NCBI RefSeq assembly: GCF_037078405.1
Contig: NZ_JAYMGZ010000003.1
Location: 62,001-126,000 of the forward strand
DNA from: Haloarcula sp. DT43
Lineage (GTDB): Archaea > Halobacteriota > Halobacteria > Halobacteriales > Haloarculaceae
Length of the DNA stretch: 64,000 nucleotides
Direction: 5' to 3'
Part shown: positions 8,638-39,143 of the stretch, piece by piece
Position numbering within the stretch: the first letter of the stretch is position 1
Layout: each line of letters begins with the position of its first letter
Position numbers and translations under genes: made by a program
Notes under the pieces: model-generated
Database searches by the model: none
Told to the model about the DNA's origin: nothing
The model's input: only the letters and a program-made list of their open reading frames with translations

Positions 8638-10242
8638 TCAGTGTCCCACAGCCCACGGGTAGCCGCCGGTCGCAGCGTGGCCGTGGTCGGCCTCCCCGGC
8701 ACGGTCGTCGGTGTCCGTCCGGACCACGTCGTCGACCCGAAGTAGCTGTGTGGCGACGGCGACCGCTCGCCGCAGCGCGCTCTCGAACACCGAGGCCGGT
8801 TCCAGGATACCCGCCGCAACCATATCGTGGGGGCGGCCGTCGGGTCCGACGCCGACCGTCGCCGTCCCGCTGTCGTGGCGCTGTTTCAGCGTCGTCAGCG
8901 TCTCCAGCGGGTCCGCCCCGGCGTTCGCGGCCAGTGTGCATGGCACCGCTTCGAGCGCAGTCCCGAACCCGTCGAAGACGAGCTGTGTCCGGTCCGGGAC
9001 CCCGCGGGCAACGTCGGCGACGTCCATCGCCAGCGCGGTCGGGACCGCACCACCGCCCGGCACGAACGCGCCGTCCTCGAGCGCGAGGCGGGTAACGTCG
9101 ATGCAGTCGGCGACGATGCGGCGGACCTCCTCTGCGACGTGTGGCGTGCCGCCGCGGAGGACCAGCGAGACCCGCCGCTCCTCGGGACAGCCCCGCAACA
9201 CGAGCGTCCGTGTGGTCCCGACGGTGCGCTGGCTGACTGCCTCGACGGTGCCTGTCTCCTCCGGAGTGAGTTCGTCGACGGCCGTGACCGGCGTAGCCCC
9301 GGTCGCCCGGGCGATGACGTCGAACTCGTCACGCCGGGTCCGCTCGACGGGGAGCACGCCGCGCTGTGCGAGCGCGGTTCGCACGGACTCGTCGATGGAT
9401 TTCTGGCAGAACAGCACGGCCGCGCCCGACTGCACGACCCCCTCGACGAGGTCCGCTCTGCGCTCCCGTTCGTAGTCCTGGAACGCGCGCCGCTGTGTGG
9501 CGTCCCGGAACGCCACCGACTCGACGCTGTCCGGCTCCCCGATGCCGATTTCGCCGTCGACCATCGCAATGGCCGGCTCGTCGTGGGTGTCGGCGCGCGG
9601 ATTCAGCGCTTCGAGAGCGGTCGAGGAACTGTCGAGATCGACAACGACGCCGTCGAGACGCGCCGACTCGCGGAGTTCGCCGCCGGGGTAGGACCGGAGC
9701 GTGAGCTTCGACGTGTCGAACCCGACGGCCCGCAACGCCCCGAGCGTCAGGTCGGCGAACCGGTCGGTCGACGCGTCGTCCCACCGCCCCGTGACGGCGG
9801 TCTTCGCAATCTGTCCGAGGCGGTCGTCGTTGCCATCGAGGGCACGTTCGTACCGCTCGACCCGGTCGAGGGCGGCTTCGGCGGCCCCGACGTATCCATC
9901 GACGATTGTCGTCGGGTGCAGCCCGTCCGCGCGGAGAGACGCGGCCGCGTCGAGGAGTGCACCGACGAGCACGACGGCCGTCGTCACCCCGTCACCGACA
10001 GCCTCGTCCTGCGCGGCCGCGGTCCGTTCGACCAGCCGGCCGACCGGGTGGTCGATGTCCATCCACTCGACGATTTTCGACCCGTCGTTCGTGACGACGA
10101 CGGTCCCACTCTCGCCGATGACCATCTTGTCCATGCCGTTCGGCCCTAGCGTCGTCCGGACGGCGTCGGCGAGTGCGCCGGCGGCGTCCCCGGTGCCCCC
10201 CTGCTCCTCGTTGCCCTCGTCGTCTGTGTCATCTCCCAGCAT
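8638..10242 (-). CDS. Divergent thermosome (group II chaperonin) subunit
   Basis: TCP-1/Cpn60-type chaperonin of 534 residues. The N-terminal equatorial motif LGPNGMDKM with TNDGSKIVEWMDIDHP, the nucleotide motif GDGVTTAVVL (normally GDGTTT) and the C-terminal GILEP...LLRVDDVV block are retained, so ATP binding is likely. The N-terminus is short and lacks the usual NI.AA helix that holds the ring together, and the apical region is more divergent than in main thermosome subunits. Haloarchaea typically have two or three paralogues; this looks like the minor, fast-evolving one. Start ATG 10242 follows the formamidase stop by about 35 nt on the same strand. Confidence 0.83.
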   Translation of the reverse strand: MLGDDTDDEGNEEQGGTGDAAGALADAVRTTLGPNGMDKMVIGESGTVVVTNDGSKIVEWMDIDHPVGRLVERTAAAQDEAVGDGVTTAVVLVGALLDAAASLRADGLHPTTIVDGYVGAAEAALDRVERYERALDGNDDRLGQIAKTAVTGRWDDASTDRFADLTLGALRAVGFDTSKLTLRSYPGGELRESARLDGVVVDLDSSSTALEALNPRADTHDEPAIAMVDGEIGIGEPDSVESVAFRDATQRRAFQDYERERRADLVEGVVQSGAAVLFCQKSIDESVRTALAQRGVLPVERTRRDEFDVIARATGATPVTAVDELTPEETGTVEAVSQRTVGTTRTLVLRGCPEERRVSLVLRGGTPHVAEEVRRIVADCIDVTRLALEDGAFVPGGGAVPTALAMDVADVARGVPDRTQLVFDGFGTALEAVPCTLAANAGADPLETLTTLKQRHDSGTATVGVGPDGRPHDMVAAGILEPASVFESALRRAVAVATQLLRVDDVVRTDTDDRAGEADHGHAATGGYPWAVGH

Positions 10243-14272: not shown

Positions 14273-14746
14273 ATGGCCGACCAGGATATCGACGACGTAG
14301 ACAGGGCGATTCTGTACGCGTTACAGGAGGACGCTCGAAACATGTCCTCCGGGGACATCGCGGAGCGGACCGACACGTCGGACAGCACCGTTCGCAAGCG
14401 CATCAACCGCCTCGAATCCAGCGGGATAATCAAAGGCTACAGCGCGGACGTCGACTACCAGGAGGCGGGCTACCCGCTCCGGATGCTCCTGTACTGCACC
14501 GCGTCGATTCCCGAACGGGGCGAGCTGATCCCCGAGATTCTGGAGATAGACGGCGTCGTATCGGTACAGGAACTGGTCACCGGCGAACAGAACCTCCTGG
14601 TGACGGCCGTCGGCGAGTCCGATAGCGACATCACGCCGGTCGCGCAGGCGCTCCTGGACATGGACCTGACGGTGGCCGACGAGGTGCTCGTCCGGAGCCA
14701 CGAGACGACGCCCTTCGGCAAGTTCGATTCCAGGAACGGCGACTGA
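14273..14746 (+). CDS. Lrp/AsnC family transcriptional regulator
   Basis: A 157-residue protein starting with the family pattern DIDDVDRAILYALQEDARNMSSGDIAERTDTSDSTVRKRINRLESSGIIKGY (HTH, residues 5-58). A C-terminal ligand-binding/dimerisation RAM-like domain follows at about 65-150 (VQELVTGEQNLLVTAVG). Such proteins act as octameric or dimeric regulators sensing amino acids or other metabolites. It is the last regulator before the dabBA operon on the same strand; the 350-nt gap and separate TATA box argue that it is a distinct unit that may control dabBA. Confidence 0.85.
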   Translation: MADQDIDDVDRAILYALQEDARNMSSGDIAERTDTSDSTVRKRINRLESSGIIKGYSADVDYQEAGYPLRMLLYCTASIPERGELIPEILEIDGVVSVQELVTGEQNLLVTAVGESDSDITPVAQALLDMDLTVADEVLVRSHETTPFGKFDSRNGD

Positions 14747-14759
14747 CGACGGGTCGCGC

Positions 14760-14957
14760 TCAGAGACAGCCGCGGAGTCCCCTCCTTTCTGGTCCGTCGA
14801 ACGATTCGGGAATTTCTGTCCGTGTCGCCAGGAACGCAGCCCCAATTATCGCGTAGCCGTATGTCTGAGCGAAAACTCGCTCCACCACGTATCGGCCGCC
14901 AGAGTCCCTGAAGGTCCAGGTAGGGCGTGTCTCCCGGTCGGCCACCTCGAAAACCAT
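14760..14957 (-). CDS. Possible small protein, uncertain
   Basis: A 65-codon frame from an ATG preceded by an AT-rich promoter-like stretch (GAATTATAGAAC on the minus strand). The middle (VVERVFAQTYGYAIIGAAFLA) could form one hydrophobic helix. Third-position GC is lower than in neighbouring genes and no family is recognised, so this may be a decaying gene or a chance frame. Confidence 0.3.
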   Translation of the reverse strand: MVFEVADRETRPTWTFRDSGGRYVVERVFAQTYGYAIIGAAFLATRTEIPESFDGPERRGLRGCL

Positions 14958-15006
14958 AATGTTCTATAATTCACCTCTTTAGGAACAATCTGGTAGTATA
15001 GAAGGA

Positions 15007-15014
15007 TTTAATAA
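15007..15014 (+). promoter_or_regulatory. Putative TATA box of the dabBA operon
   Basis: TTTAATAA lies in the AT-rich stretch between the Lrp gene and dabB. Transcription would begin near 15036, giving a leader of roughly 45-65 nt before ATG 15080 or 15101 and ruling against the earliest in-frame start at 15020. Confidence 0.4.
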
Positions 15015-15100
15015 CCAGTATGTTCGCAATAGGGGTGAAGACAACCAGACCCGGTCAACCGCGTTCCGAGGTTGCCGTGATGGGTCACGAACGAACAACG

Positions 15101-16588
15101 ATGTCAGGACGCAACTCTACGACGACGGTCGGATCACTCCCGGACACGGCGGCAGACTCGCCGCTCGTGCCCGTCGCACTCACGTGGCTCGTGTGGTCGA
15201 TGCTGGCTGCGAGCATCGCCGTACTCGCCGTCCGAGTCCGAACCGGGTTCACATGGGAGGTTCCCGGCGTGGTCGCCGTCGACGGGCTGACCGTGCTGAT
15301 GTGGGTGGTCGTCACGTTCTTCAGCGGCATCGTCCACAGCTACTCGCGCCGCTACATGGCGGGCAGTCGCGTCAAAACGCCCTTTTTCGCCACCGTGTTC
15401 GGCTTCACGGTGGTCGTGATGGGGCTCGTCGCGGCTGACCACCTCGCCCTGTTCGCGGCGCTGTGGCTGGCGATGGGACTGCTGATGGCGAAACTCATCG
15501 GTATCGTCGGGGGCTGGGACCAGGCGCAGGCGGCCGCGTCGGTCGCCCGCAGGTACTTCCTCGCCAGCAGCGGGCTCCTCGGTCTCGCACTGGCGGCGCT
15601 GTGGTGGGCGACCGGGGCGACGACGGTCTCCGGGGTCGCCGCGGCGGCCGACACGCTCGGCGGCCCGGTGTGGCTGGCCGCCGCCGGCGCACTCGTGCTC
15701 GCGGCGATGATTCAGTCCGCCCTGATTCCGTTCCACGGCTGGCTGCTCTCTTCGATGACCGCCCCGACGCCCGCGTCGGCGCTGATGCACGCCGGGTTCG
15801 TCAACGCGGGCGGCATCCTGCTGACCCGCTTCGCGCCGGTCGTCACCGTCGACCCCGCGCTCATGCTGGCAATCGTCGCCGTCGGCGGTGCCAGCGCCAT
15901 CGGCGGAAAACTCCTGAAGTCCGTCCAGACGGACGTCAAGGGCCAACTCGGCTGTTCGACGGTCGGCCAGATGGGATTCATGATAATGCAGGCCGGCCTC
16001 GGCTTCTTCGGAGCCGCCATCACCCACCTCATCCTGCACGGCTTCTACAAGGCCTACCAGTTCCTCAGTTCGGGAAGCGAAGTCGAACACACGAGCCCGG
16101 GCGACGGGACGCCGCACACGGTGGGACCGGTGGCGAGCGTCGCCGGGGCCGCCGTGACGCTGCTGACCGGTCTCGCCGGCGGCGCGCTGTTCGCAGTACT
16201 GACCGGAAAGGGGACGACGGCCGACAGCGGCCTGCTGTTGACCCTGTTCGTGGTGTTCACGACGCTCCACGCGGCCCGCAGCGCCGTCCAGCACACCTCG
16301 CTCTCCGCGACGGCCCGCTACGGAGCCGTCCCGCTGGTCTTCTTCCCCGCCATCGGAATCTACGCCGTGGTCTACTCGGCCGTCTCGGCGCTCGTGCCGG
16401 TGAGCGCGGTGACGACCGACCTGACCCTGCTCCACGGCCTCGTCGCCGTGGCGTTCGTCGCCATCTACACCGGCATCGAGACGGGGGTTCACGAGCGCAG
16501 CCAGCGCCTCTACGTGGCGCTGTTGAACGCCGGCCAGCCGGCGGCCGACACCGTGCTTACCGCGACGGAGGATTACAATGAGTACTGA
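15101..16588 (+). CDS. dabB: DabB, proton-conducting membrane subunit of inorganic-carbon transporter
   Basis: NuoL/MrpA-like membrane protein of 495 residues with about 13 hydrophobic helices. The antiporter-family core IPFHGWLLSSMTAPTPASALMHAGFVNAGG is intact, as is the STVGQMGFMIMQ helix with its downstream HLILHGFYKAYQFLSSGS. Pairing with a DUF2309 gene identifies it as DabB, which conducts cations to drive one-way CO2 hydration by DabA at the membrane. No other complex I genes are present. ATG 15101 is preferred (an ATG at 15080 is possible). Its last 11 bases overlap the start of dabA, implying translational coupling. Confidence 0.88.
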   Translation: MSGRNSTTTVGSLPDTAADSPLVPVALTWLVWSMLAASIAVLAVRVRTGFTWEVPGVVAVDGLTVLMWVVVTFFSGIVHSYSRRYMAGSRVKTPFFATVFGFTVVVMGLVAADHLALFAALWLAMGLLMAKLIGIVGGWDQAQAAASVARRYFLASSGLLGLALAALWWATGATTVSGVAAAADTLGGPVWLAAAGALVLAAMIQSALIPFHGWLLSSMTAPTPASALMHAGFVNAGGILLTRFAPVVTVDPALMLAIVAVGGASAIGGKLLKSVQTDVKGQLGCSTVGQMGFMIMQAGLGFFGAAITHLILHGFYKAYQFLSSGSEVEHTSPGDGTPHTVGPVASVAGAAVTLLTGLAGGALFAVLTGKGTTADSGLLLTLFVVFTTLHAARSAVQHTSLSATARYGAVPLVFFPAIGIYAVVYSAVSALVPVSAVTTDLTLLHGLVAVAFVAIYTGIETGVHERSQRLYVALLNAGQPAADTVLTATEDYNEY

Positions 16589-18980
16589 CGCCACCATCCG
16601 CGACAGCATCGACACCGCAGCGACGACCGTCGGCTCGCTCTGGCCGATTCACTCGTTCGTGACGGCGAACCCCCTGGCTGGGTTCGAGGACCGGCCGTTC
16701 GACGAGGCGGTAGCGGACGCCGCCGACCTGCTGGGTGGCCGTGGCTACCCCAGCGCCGAGACGTTCCGCACGGCGCTCCAGCGTGACCAGATTGACCCGG
16801 GGATACTCGAAACGGAACTCGCCGACCTCGGCTACGACGAGGACCCCGAGGTACTGCTCGAGCACATGGCCAACGCGAGCGACGCCACGGGTGACGCCGC
16901 CGACGGTCCGACGGACCGCGTCGACCAGGTGCTGGCGAAGTGGCTGTCGGCGTTCCTCGACGAGGGGAGCGCACACTGGTCGATGCCGAACCGCAAAGCG
17001 GGGTTCTACACGGCCTTCCGCGGGGTGGCTGAACACGACAGCGAAATCCCGGCGACGGCCGTCGACGCCCTGGCGCAGACGCCGACCGGCACTATCGAAG
17101 CCGTGCTCGCGCCGTACCCGGAGCACCAGTGGGAGACCATCTTCGAGGAGCAACTGGCCGCCCTGCCTGGCTGGACGGGGCTCATTAAACAGCGCGACGA
17201 CGACGAGGGCGCGTGGCAGTCGACCTATCCGATTTCGCTGGCGGGGTACCTCGCGGCGCGGCTGGCGCTGCTCGACGCCGTCGACGCCGACATCTCCCCC
17301 TCGGACAACAGCGTCGAGCCGGACCCGACCGCCGAACTCGCCGGAGCGTTCCTGCGTGCGTGGGAGGCGACCTACCGCGGGGCCCTGGTCGAAACCGTCG
17401 CCGCCGAGAGCCAGTCGCTGGCCGACAGCGACACCGGCGGCCGCCCGGACGCACAGTTGGTGTTCTGTATCGACACCCGCTCGGAGGTCATCCGCCGCCA
17501 CATCGAGGCGACGGGCGACTACGAGACCCACGGATACGCCGGCTTCTTCGGCATCCCGATAGAGTACCAGGGCTACGACGACGAGGTGTCGGTCGACGCC
17601 TGCCCGCCGATTCTGGACCCGCAGCACCGCATCACCGACGTGCCGACCGACGACGACACGCAGGCGAGCCACGACCGCTGGTCGGGCCTCCGCGAGGCCG
17701 CCGACGAAGTCATCGAGACGCTCGAAGCCAACGCCGCCACGGCCTACGGCTACGTCGAGACTGCCGGGAGCGGGTACAGCCTCGCGCTCGCGGCCCGCAC
17801 GCTCGTCCCCGGGCGCGTCCACGACCTGTTCGACACGGTCGAGGAGTCGGTGCCGGACGACCACGAGTTCTGTGACCCACTCGTCCACTACCAGCACAGC
17901 TACGCCGGCGACCTGCCGGTGGGGCTGACGACAGAGGAGAAAGTCGAGTACGCCGCCACCGCGTTCGACATGATGGGCTGGGAGGAGTTCAGCCGCCTCG
18001 TCGTCTTCACCGGACACGCGAGCGAGACGGCCAACAACCCCTACGACGCGAGCCTGGACTGTGGGGCCTGTGCGGGCAACCCCGGCGGCCCGAACGCCCG
18101 CGTGCTGGCCGAAATCTGCAACGACGAGGCAGTCAGGGCCGCGCTCCGCGACCAGGGCTTCGACATCCCCGAGGACACGGTCTTCCTCGCCGGCGAACAC
18201 AACACGACGACTGCCGAGGTGGAACTGTACGACAGCGACGTGCCCGAGAGCCACGCCGACGACCTCGCCCAGTTGCGCGGCGACCTCGCCGCCGCCCGCG
18301 AGGACGCGGCCGCCGAGCGCGCCGAATCGATGGGTGCCGACGGTTCGTCGGGCGTCAGCGAGACGGAGCGCCGCGCCGCCGACTGGGCCGAGACCCGCCC
18401 CGAGTGGGGGCTGGCCGGCAACGCTGGCTTCGTCGTCGGCCCGCGCGAGCTGACGAGCGACGTGGACCTCGACGGCCGCGCGTTCCTCCACTCATACGAC
18501 TGGTCGACTGACCCTGACGGCGAGGCCCTGGAGTCGATACTCACCGGGCCGATGGTCGTCACGCAGTGGATAAACACCCAGTACTACTTCTCGACGGTCG
18601 ACAACGCCGTCTACGGCAGCGGGTCCAAGGTGACCCACAACCCCGTCGGCAACGTCGGCGTCTACCAGGGCAACGGCGGCGACCTGATGGCCGGCCTGCC
18701 GCTCCAGTCGCTGATGGCCGCCGACGACGACCCGTACCACCAGCCGCTCCGCCTCTCGACGGTCATCCACGCCCCGGTCGACCGCGTCACCGACGTGCTC
18801 GCCGACCACGGTGAGCTTGCGGAACTGCTCGACAACGACTGGCTCTCGCTGACCGTCGTCGACCCCACGCAGGACCACCGCGCGTTCCAGTACGAGCGCG
18901 ACCTGGAGTGGACGCCCGTGTCCGAGCGCGCCGTGGCCGACGCGATGGAACCGACCGCCTCCGCGGTCGCCGACGACTGA
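16578..18980 (+). CDS. dabA: DabA, DUF2309 carbonic-anhydrase-like subunit of inorganic-carbon transporter
   Basis: An 800-residue DUF2309 protein, peripheral to the membrane, that with DabB converts CO2 to bicarbonate and traps it inside the cell. The zinc-site residues known from proteobacterial DabA align by motif: Cys297 and Asp299 in FCIDTRSE, His480 in TGHASETANNPY and Cys495 in SLDCGACAGNPGG. All four are kept, so the enzyme should be active. The N-terminal LWPIHSFVTANPLAGFED and C-terminal GNGGDLMAGLPLQSL blocks are also family signatures. The length is near the usual 800-1000. Last gene of a two-gene operon. Confidence 0.92.
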   Translation: MSTDATIRDSIDTAATTVGSLWPIHSFVTANPLAGFEDRPFDEAVADAADLLGGRGYPSAETFRTALQRDQIDPGILETELADLGYDEDPEVLLEHMANASDATGDAADGPTDRVDQVLAKWLSAFLDEGSAHWSMPNRKAGFYTAFRGVAEHDSEIPATAVDALAQTPTGTIEAVLAPYPEHQWETIFEEQLAALPGWTGLIKQRDDDEGAWQSTYPISLAGYLAARLALLDAVDADISPSDNSVEPDPTAELAGAFLRAWEATYRGALVETVAAESQSLADSDTGGRPDAQLVFCIDTRSEVIRRHIEATGDYETHGYAGFFGIPIEYQGYDDEVSVDACPPILDPQHRITDVPTDDDTQASHDRWSGLREAADEVIETLEANAATAYGYVETAGSGYSLALAARTLVPGRVHDLFDTVEESVPDDHEFCDPLVHYQHSYAGDLPVGLTTEEKVEYAATAFDMMGWEEFSRLVVFTGHASETANNPYDASLDCGACAGNPGGPNARVLAEICNDEAVRAALRDQGFDIPEDTVFLAGEHNTTTAEVELYDSDVPESHADDLAQLRGDLAAAREDAAAERAESMGADGSSGVSETERRAADWAETRPEWGLAGNAGFVVGPRELTSDVDLDGRAFLHSYDWSTDPDGEALESILTGPMVVTQWINTQYYFSTVDNAVYGSGSKVTHNPVGNVGVYQGNGGDLMAGLPLQSLMAADDDPYHQPLRLSTVIHAPVDRVTDVLADHGELAELLDNDWLSLTVVDPTQDHRAFQYERDLEWTPVSERAVADAMEPTASAVADD

Positions 18981-37420: not shown

Positions 37421-38328
37421 CCCAGGCTGTCAGGTAGCCGGCGTCGACCGCAATCCACTCCCCGGTCATTTTCGTTTTCGAGAAAGGGAACCTCGCCCCC
37501 ACCAGGAATCCGATAATACCGGAGAGGGACCATCCACCGACTGGGTGTGACTACAGACAGAAGAATCCCTGGTAACACACTAAATACGGGCTGAGCGACG
37601 ATAGAGACAGTCAGGAACCGAGTGATACCATCAGCTCGTAATCTAATTCAGATAGACAGCCATACCGCCATTCGAGAGCATCCGATATTGGCGGAAAGCT
37701 TACCACAGTAACTCAAAATCGGGTCCGGATGTCGAGACAGGGCCTAATGGCCAGTGCTATCGTAGCGCATGTAACGAACCACTGTCTCGGCGCAAGAGGT
37801 GATTCACGGGCAGCAAGTAACCAAACGATGGGAACAGTCCGCACACGAGGTGGTACGTCACTCCATAGAACTCCTCCGCAGTAACCGTGGTCTGGAAAAT
37901 ACTATCATAGTAGCAGACGACTGTCTCCGGTAGTAGCGGATAGGGTTCTCGCTACTACCGTATGGAATCTAGATTGTACGTGGCGTCTCGTCAACAAAAA
38001 TATAACAGATGTACTCGTGTTATCCATCGCGTTTTACCAGGGCTAGCTCAGAGAATACCTGTCGGTTCGCGTTCTGAGGGTATCAAACAGCTATATAGAC
38101 TCATTATTTGCTTGATATGATTGTTTTTCGGCTCGCAGGACCTAATTTTTGATTGGGATTGTAAATATACACTTTTTACATGTTTTCCACGCGTTTTATA
38201 TTTATATAACGAAGTAATACGACTATATTGGACCAGTGGCGCGTCGAGACGTGATGGAGTGGCTGTCAGAGTGTCTCCAGCATCAGGCCGCCCGTCGGGA
38301 AAGACTTAGGTATCTTTATTGTGTACTT
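37421..38328. other. Long AT-rich noncoding region
   Basis: About 900 nt with no credible reading frame, among the most AT-rich stretches of the window. It separates the sugar locus from the sulfur module. It contains a strong dyad at 37928-37960 and an AT-rich promoter-like block at 38145-38215 (including TTTTATATTTATATAACG). It could be the residue of a lost gene or element, but no transposase or terminal repeat pair was recognised. Confidence 0.5.
37928..37960. repeat. Perfect 11-base inverted repeat
   Basis: CGGTAGTAGCG and CGCTACTACCG separated by 11 bases. No gene overlaps it. As RNA it would form a stable hairpin; as DNA it could be an operator or the end of a degraded element. A partial copy of one arm (ATAGTAGCAG) lies about 20 bases before it. 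Confidence 0.6.
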
Positions 38329-38547
38329 GTGGATATAAAGCACAATATTGGAGTGACAGACAGGCGGACTCGGATTATCGTGGGACTCGCAGTGGGGGTC
38401 ATCGGTATGGCCACACTCGGCGGGCTCTTGGAGTTGGGGATGGTGGTTGGCACGATTCTGGCTGCAGCGGCCCTCATCCTCGTCGGGACTGGACTCGTTC
38501 GAGTGTGTCCCCTGTACCGTCTGCTGGGCATCGACACATCCCGATAG
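38329..38547 (+). CDS. DUF2892 (YgaP-like) inner-membrane protein
   Basis: Seventy-two residues from GTG 38329. The family start (HNIGVTDRRTRIIVGLAVG) leads into two transmembrane helices and ends GLVRVCPLYRLLGIDTS, the CPLY motif being diagnostic for DUF2892. Such proteins are often linked to rhodanese and sulfur-transfer genes, and TusA and sulfide oxidoreductase genes follow here. The upstream part of the open frame is not conserved. Confidence 0.75.
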   Translation: MDIKHNIGVTDRRTRIIVGLAVGVIGMATLGGLLELGMVVGTILAAAALILVGTGLVRVCPLYRLLGIDTSR

Positions 38548-38549
38548 CG

Positions 38550-39143
38550 ATGGAGCGGTTCCAGAACACCGGCCAGCCCGACTGGGACTGGTGGAGCAAG
38601 CTCTGGCCGACGCCCGGTGCGACACTTCGGAGCCTCGGCATCGGGGCTGACGAATCGGTCGCCGAAGTGGGATGCGGAAGCGGGTACTTCGCGTTGCCGG
38701 CCGCCCGTATCGTCGAGCCCGGATCGGTGTACGCGCTGGACCTCGACGAGGAACTACTCGCCGAACTGGAGCACCTCGCAGACCAGCAGGACATCGAGAA
38801 CGTCGTCCCGGTTCACGGCGACGCGCGTAACCTGACCGCAGTCCTCCCGGAACGTGTCGACACACTGGTCGTAGCAAACACGTTCCACGGAATCGACGAC
38901 CAGGCGGGGTTCGTCCGGAACGCCTTCCAAGTAATCGAACCCGGCGGGGAGCTGGCAATCATCAACTGGCACGAGCGGCCGCGCGAAACGACGACCGTGG
39001 AGGCAGAGCCCCGTGGGCCCCCGACGGGACGTCGAATGACGCCCGGAGACACCCAAGAGACCGTGCGTTCGGCGTCGGAGTTCGTGTTCCGTCGGCATGT
39101 TGATCTCCCACCGTATCACTACGGGCTCGTGTTCGAGCGGTAA
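38550..39143 (+). CDS. Class I SAM-dependent methyltransferase
   Basis: A 197-residue UbiE-like methyltransferase. The SAM-binding glycine motif AEVGCGSGYFALPAA (about 39-53), acidic strand end YALDLDEEL and post-motif NTFHGI are present. The start 2 nt after the DUF2892 stop marks an operon. The small size and context suggest methylation of a small molecule, perhaps a thiol, sulfide or metalloid; the substrate cannot be read from sequence. Confidence 0.78.
   Translation: MERFQNTGQPDWDWWSKLWPTPGATLRSLGIGADESVAEVGCGSGYFALPAARIVEPGSVYALDLDEELLAELEHLADQQDIENVVPVHGDARNLTAVLPERVDTLVVANTFHGIDDQAGFVRNAFQVIEPGGELAIINWHERPRETTTVEAEPRGPPTGRRMTPGDTQETVRSASEFVFRRHVDLPPYHYGLVFER

Follow-up and report, generated by a model that had tools for sequence, protein, structure and literature searches.

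A DAB operon in a heterotrophic haloarchaeon, with a candidate dedicated Lrp-type regulator and a conserved upstream element

What would a DAB inorganic-carbon operon do in a heterotrophic haloarchaeon, and what would control it? These questions are raised by a 64-kb stretch of Haloarcula DNA (hereafter the window), in which dabB and dabA lie beside a gene for an Lrp/AsnC-type regulator (Table 1). The ORF coordinates bear out the 11-nt overlap of dabB and dabA reported in the initial annotation, nucleotides 16578-16588 being shared. dabB most likely starts at 15101 and not at 15020, because 136 of the 139 DabB rows in an alignment keep the Met at residue 28 of the open reading frame, and the annotated dabB of Haloarcula hispanica (pHH400) is equal in length at 495 aa. 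Comparisons were made with 61 loci hand-picked across genera and with 80 named loci, which are the nearest relatives by identity; dabB adjoins dabA in all 61 and in all 80. The identification as DAB was upheld by the protein families and the order of the genes, and by the zinc ligands, the Asp-Arg dyad, the finger Glu and the residues of the proton path. The host operon is an ordinary DAB operon, correctly recognised, in a heterotrophic haloarchaeon.

Table 1. Features of the dab locus, in coordinates of the window
Feature	Position	Strand	Description
lrp	14273..14746	+	Lrp/AsnC-type regulator gene, separate from the dabBA promoter; HTH_AsnC and HTH_24 matches
Putative composite operator/promoter of dabBA	14953..15026	+	Position-weight matrix match of 76.6 bits
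Element A	14959..14970	+	ATGTTCTATAAT; 0 or 1 mismatch in 68/114 nonredundant upstream regions
Element B	14983..14992	+	GAACnnnnTG; exact in 103/114 regions vs 3/114 shuffled
TATA-like box	15005..15013	+	GATTTAATA; conserved in class consensus; putative TATA function
Element C	15020..15025	+	TGTTC half-site just downstream of TATA-like box
dabB	15101..16588	+	495 aa; PF00361 membrane subunit; open ORF from 15020
dabA	16578..18980	+	800 aa; PF10070 beta-CA-like zinc subunit with membrane finger

DabA matched PF10070 at 882 bits in a profile search, and its best sequence match in the PDB was DabA2 of Halothiobacillus (9rd0_A, E 1.7e-107). Residues named for DAB2 in PMC13144422 were transferred to the host DabA and DabB via sequence alignments. 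The four residues that had been assigned to the zinc site, C297, D299, H480 and C495, are all present and align with DabA2 C351, D353, H524 and C539. The zinc ligands of DabA2 are described as C351, H524 and C539, and D353 as the catalytic residue of an Asp-Arg dyad (PMC13144422); D299 is thus the equivalent of the catalytic Asp and not a ligand. The dyad here is D299-R301, and the finger Glu is Glu394 (DabA2 Glu444). Zinc ligands, dyad, finger Glu and Leu658 have equivalents in the host DabA that are identical to those of DabA2, and none of them varies among the 141 haloarchaeal DabA rows. At the position of the water-relay Asp590 of DabA2 the host has Ala546, while Asp is found there in 139 of the 141 rows. 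An AlphaFold2 model of DabA, with a mean pLDDT of 56 and values below 50 around the zinc residues, was too poor for judging the geometry of the site.

DabB matched PF00361 at 120 bits, and its best PDB sequence match was DabB2 (9rd0_B, E 4.4e-34). Seven proton-path residues of DabB2 (S256, H260, K310, S316, H339, H343 and K347) have identical equivalents in the host protein. In the 139 haloarchaeal DabB rows counted, two of the 141 loci (L150 and L154) having been left out, the equivalents of K310, S316, H339, H343 and K347 are present in every row and those of S256 and H260 in 138. Of the DabB2 ion-pair residues, R182 is replaced by L in the host, D185 by S and K235 by Q. The position of Lys235 is Gln in 137 of the 139 rows, and the six most frequent residues listed for position 185 in these rows do not include Asp. 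Going by these alignments, haloarchaeal DabB keeps the proton path of DAB2 but is without its ion pair. When three plasmid-borne bacterial DabB sequences were inspected by eye in an alignment, each had an acid at the 185 position, and the 235 position was Arg, Ala and Arg. The ion pair of Lys235 and Asp185, with Arg182, is a feature of DAB2 and does not define DAB complexes, its alanine variants still complementing (PMC13144422). At the omitted L150, a locus from a Haloquadratum MAG, the dabB match was in two pieces, residues 27-161 and 340-522, and the operator was intact; because the match is split, this dabB may be interrupted or misassembled.

The likeness to DAB2 (DabA2/DabB2) of Halothiobacillus neapolitanus thus takes in the two subunits, the zinc ligands, the dyad, the finger Glu and the seven DabB residues. 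Besides the replaced ion-pair and relay residues, the differences are the host, here a heterotrophic haloarchaeon whose genome gave no match to the RuBisCO model PF00016, and the Lrp-type regulator. CO2 as the substrate, the ion coupling and the product are taken from characterised homologues. By this analogy, the dabBA product would be a DAB-type vectorial CO2-hydrating complex. Protons would pass inward through DabB, along a NuoL-like path completed by Glu394 of the DabA finger, and their flux would gate CO2 hydration at the buried zinc site of DabA (C297, H480, C495 and the D299-R301 dyad), so that bicarbonate would accumulate in the cytosol and become available to PEP carboxylase and other carboxylases. 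Transcription would be set by a single-target Lrp at GAAC/GTTC half-sites flanking the TATA-like box of dabB, and in several haloarchaeal lineages the complex would have replaced beta-carbonic anhydrase (beta-CA). Taken as a whole, this explanation, in which a CO2-hydrating complex under a dedicated Lrp switch provides a heterotroph with bicarbonate and replaces beta-CA, is one that we consider likely.

An MpsAB-like Na+/bicarbonate symporter, importing bicarbonate together with sodium and hydrating no CO2, would be a different answer to the same question. Symport would be energetically cheap in sodium-rich brine, it has been proposed as the activity of MpsAB in Staphylococcus aureus (PMC6689103), and a DabB without the ion-pair residues of DabB2 may handle ions differently. 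We nevertheless regard a symporter as unlikely, since the zinc and dyad residues of DAB2 hydration are invariant in all 141 DabA rows, the DAB2 proton-path residues are conserved in DabB, and a Na+ transport test of DAB2 is reported as negative (PMC13144422).

The initial annotation had seen no carbon-fixation gene and had proposed anaplerosis as one use of the bicarbonate, naming the genes for RuBisCO, PEP carboxylase and carbonic anhydrases as informative. The RuBisCO search was made with PF00016; it gave no match in the host genome, and matches in 5 of 14 control genomes, including that of Haloferax volcanii. PEP carboxylase was found with PF00311 (E 9e-272). Two PF00484 beta-CA genes, both retaining C-x-D-x-R and H-x-x-C, are located on another contig than dab. 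The presence of PEP carboxylase and two beta-CA genes, together with the absence of a PF00016 match, fits bicarbonate supply for anaplerosis, and the non-autotrophic reading is thus in keeping with the genome. By analogy with characterised homologues, the host dabBA most likely supplies bicarbonate in a heterotroph. As the host has two beta-CA genes, DAB is not the sole possible bicarbonate source there.

The relation between DAB and beta-CA was followed through 391 genomes of the class Halobacteria, each at least 90% complete. DabA was found in 238 genomes, belonging to 53 of 84 genera. Beta-CA (PF00484) was found in 354 and missing from 37, which are called CA-less with respect to PF00484. 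Both genes were present in 204 genomes, DabA alone in 34, beta-CA alone in 150 and neither in 3 (Fisher p 2.4e-5). Because genomes are not independent, a permutation within genera was also carried out, covering the seven genera that were identified as having CA-less members and as including genomes both with and without DabA; 22 of their 23 CA-less genomes were DabA-positive (p 0.0035). The pattern is one-sided: absence of beta-CA is almost confined to DabA-positive genomes. That 34 of the 37 genomes without beta-CA have DabA supports substitution of DAB for beta-CA, and the presence of beta-CA in 204 of the 238 DabA-positive genomes indicates that DAB is usually not essential for bicarbonate. 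The survey also names beta-CA-less species whose growth at ambient CO2 is predicted to depend on DAB.

MpsAB of S. aureus is likewise a DAB homologue in a heterotroph. It is described as supplying bicarbonate and as interchangeable with carbonic anhydrase, and in Firmicutes the two are reported rarely to coexist (PMC6689103, PMC8552792). For haloarchaea, in contrast, mutual exclusion of the Firmicutes kind was rejected on the count of genomes carrying both genes, and such frequent coexistence runs counter to the view derived from Firmicutes.

The initial annotation had also suggested pH balance as a possible role. DabB is a member of the proton-conducting antiporter-like superfamily, and the complex might act mainly in pH or ion homeostasis, as a pathway for protons or sodium resembling Mrp, carbon supply then being a lesser function. 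We think this very improbable, given that the loss of beta-CA tracks the presence of DabA and that the partner of DabB is always a DabA with an intact zinc site (61/61 and 80/80 loci).

With trimmed queries, some CA ORFs lying antisense over lrp, a beta-CA gene was detected within 6 kb of dabA in 11 of the 80 named loci and in 27 of the 61 hand-picked loci, the latter fraction being biased upward because a CA beside dabA was already known in some of them. A secreted partner CA was considered and rejected: most of the 23 beta-CA ORFs near dabA have a short N-terminus before the active site, with no obvious signal peptide by eye. C-D-R-H-C is retained in 20 of these 23 ORFs. The exceptions are at L058, L095 and L096, where a beta-CA-like gene lies about 2.35 kb upstream of dabA, on the same strand and directly upstream of dabB. 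In these three genes the catalytic Asp-Arg dyad is lost and the zinc ligands are retained; their products are possibly inactive, or a repurposed subunit.

The preferred explanation, a CO2-hydrating complex under its own switch, makes a regulator of the neighbouring Lrp. The protein has an AsnC-type winged HTH (PF13404, E 1e-11), and the C-terminal AsnC Pfam family was absent among the profile matches of the ORF. In a low-confidence model (mean pLDDT 56) the order of elements fits a C-terminal beta-alpha-beta-beta-alpha-beta (RAM) arrangement, and the best PDB matches of this model in Foldseek include E. coli AsnC and Lrp, at a TM of about 0.5. All 61 hand-picked loci have an lrp ortholog on the dabBA strand, upstream of the pair, with a median identity of 84%; so do 76 of the 80 named loci, where the median is 85%. 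The four misses are two loci with short upstream DNA and two Haloquadratum MAG loci (L142 and L150), in which the operator is present and no lrp was found within about 6 kb. In 14 of the 61 loci lrp is separated from dabB by a divergent cluster, the tested member of which is an amidohydrolase (PF01979) gene; lrp and dabBA are therefore separate transcription units in these 14.

When the 391 genomes were searched with Lrp, the best E-values split into two classes, 1e-60 or below and 1e-48 or above. The strong class comprises 235 genomes: 234 of the 238 with DabA and 1 of the 153 without. Among DabA-positive genomes outside this class, G205 and G272 have dabA remnants only, G205 having an lrp remnant as well, and G195 and G021 have dabB or dabA near a contig start. 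The one DabA-negative genome with an Lrp ortholog (G129) has no beta-CA, and the neighbours of its lrp are genes for a NarK-like MFS protein and a Usp protein (L185:5485-8087). The proposal that the adjacent Lrp gene is a candidate regulator of dabBA is thus much strengthened, by conservation of the locus, by co-occurrence with DabA and by the conserved element upstream of dabB. Judged by these comparisons, Lrp is a dedicated partner of dabBA.

Eight-letter words were common to up to 61 of 114 nonredundant dabB-upstream regions, as against a maximum of 13 in shuffles. A 74-bp position-weight matrix scored above 15 bits in 108 of the 114 regions, the same regions on which it had been trained, and the best shuffled score was -37. 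Element C, as TCTGTTC with 0 or 1 mismatch, occurred in 99 of the 114 regions and in 21 of the 114 shuffled ones, and in some relatives element B is extended to the complete inverted repeat CGAAC-N5-GTTCG. The match upstream of the host dabB was the sole one above -5 bits in the window. Matches above 20 bits were obtained in 132 of 140 other loci; of the eight without one, L154 and L157 have little upstream DNA and the remaining six show core elements by eye.

The core, GAACnnnnTG ... TnTAATA ... CTGTTC, was found with at most four mismatches in 111 of the 114 regions, the best shuffle having six. A search of the 391 genomes with this pattern, which is less dependent on the training of the matrix though some of the genomes searched had supplied loci from which it was derived, detected the core at no more than two mismatches in 197 genomes, all 197 of them DabA-positive, and the reversed-pattern control in 1; 41 of the 238 DabA-positive genomes are without the core at two mismatches. 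Three genomes (G049, G226 and G381) have two operator sites and two DabA matches each, and in 27 compared cases the distance from the start of the site to the DabA match downstream is 1580-1653 bp. With up to three mismatches the host genome yielded one site for the core pattern and two for the reversed control, so that in the host genome the pattern search alone is not specific. We conclude from the sequence comparisons that the 74-bp element is a putative operator/promoter of dabBA, at which Lrp would bind, and that Lrp probably acts on little besides dabBA.

The element might instead be an unusually conserved core promoter and nothing more, the neighbouring Lrp acting elsewhere. It does include the TATA-like box, binding of Lrp to it is our deduction, and it occurs without a neighbouring lrp at the two Haloquadratum loci and without any lrp match in G021, where the contig extends for only 1126 bp ahead of the dabB match. 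Against this stand the conservation of about 70 bp with symmetric GAAC/GTTC half-sites, the near-perfect confinement of Lrp and element to DabA-positive genomes, and the best operator-like match in the DabA-negative G129, which scores 20 bits and lies upstream of the MFS-Usp-lrp genes. A core promoter alone therefore seems to us an improbable account, and operator function remains the preferred reading. Binding of Lrp to the operator site, its ligand and the sign of its action are points that we infer; as to sign, we slightly favour a repressor whose action is lifted when inorganic carbon is low, the reason being the position of element C, downstream of the TATA-like box but ahead of the expected start of transcription.

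The initial annotation spoke of DAB as characterised in autotrophic bacteria, and the novelty this implied is lowered, since DAB in heterotrophs and in Halobacteria is in print (PMC8305020, PMC10880623, PMC5700660, PMC6689103). The dabAB genes HVO_2410/HVO_2411 of Haloferax volcanii are the same system and were already predicted to encode a CO2 transporter, in a passage that mentions neither Lrp nor operator (PMC8305020). Halobacteria have been named as heterotrophic DAC carriers (PMC10880623), and in archaea the gene pair was noted from haloarchaea alone, LysR or PII neighbours being described for other clades (PMC5700660). The operon accordingly adds one more case of a heterotroph with DAB. 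By title and abstract, no description of an Lrp regulator or a conserved operator of haloarchaeal dab was found in the open-access literature; the class-wide dedicated Lrp-operator module is an apparently undescribed new element. With it, what had loosely been called a candidate regulator becomes a specific switch that is open to testing and is conserved in many genera, and haloarchaeal genetics gains a defined candidate inorganic-carbon-responsive promoter.

A LysR gene was found beside dabBA on plasmids of Phaeobacter, Pantoea and Nitrobacter. These LysR-associated bacterial dab/ybcC operons likewise have a transcription factor gene beside dabBA, whereas haloarchaea use an Lrp-type one. More tentatively, the haloarchaeal genes may form a self-contained inorganic-carbon module, in which DAB, held in one conformational state by loss of the ion pair, would work as a one-way carbonic anhydrase, a private one-operon Lrp would sense bicarbonate or a carboxylation metabolite directly, and the whole would be inherited or lost as a unit and would repeatedly have allowed beta-CA to be discarded. 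We rate this extended proposal as possible but doubtful; if true, the module would be the archaeal counterpart of bacterial LysR-type CO2-responsive switches.

Two further calls were made elsewhere in the window. A tRNA-Ile call by ARAGORN at 10021-10107 (+) falls inside the thermosome gene (8638-10242, -) and is probably a false positive. An ORF with a methyltransferase domain at 38319-39143 (+) gave a PADLOC mad2 match (E 7e-23) that covers a quarter of the profile; its product is most likely a generic methyltransferase.
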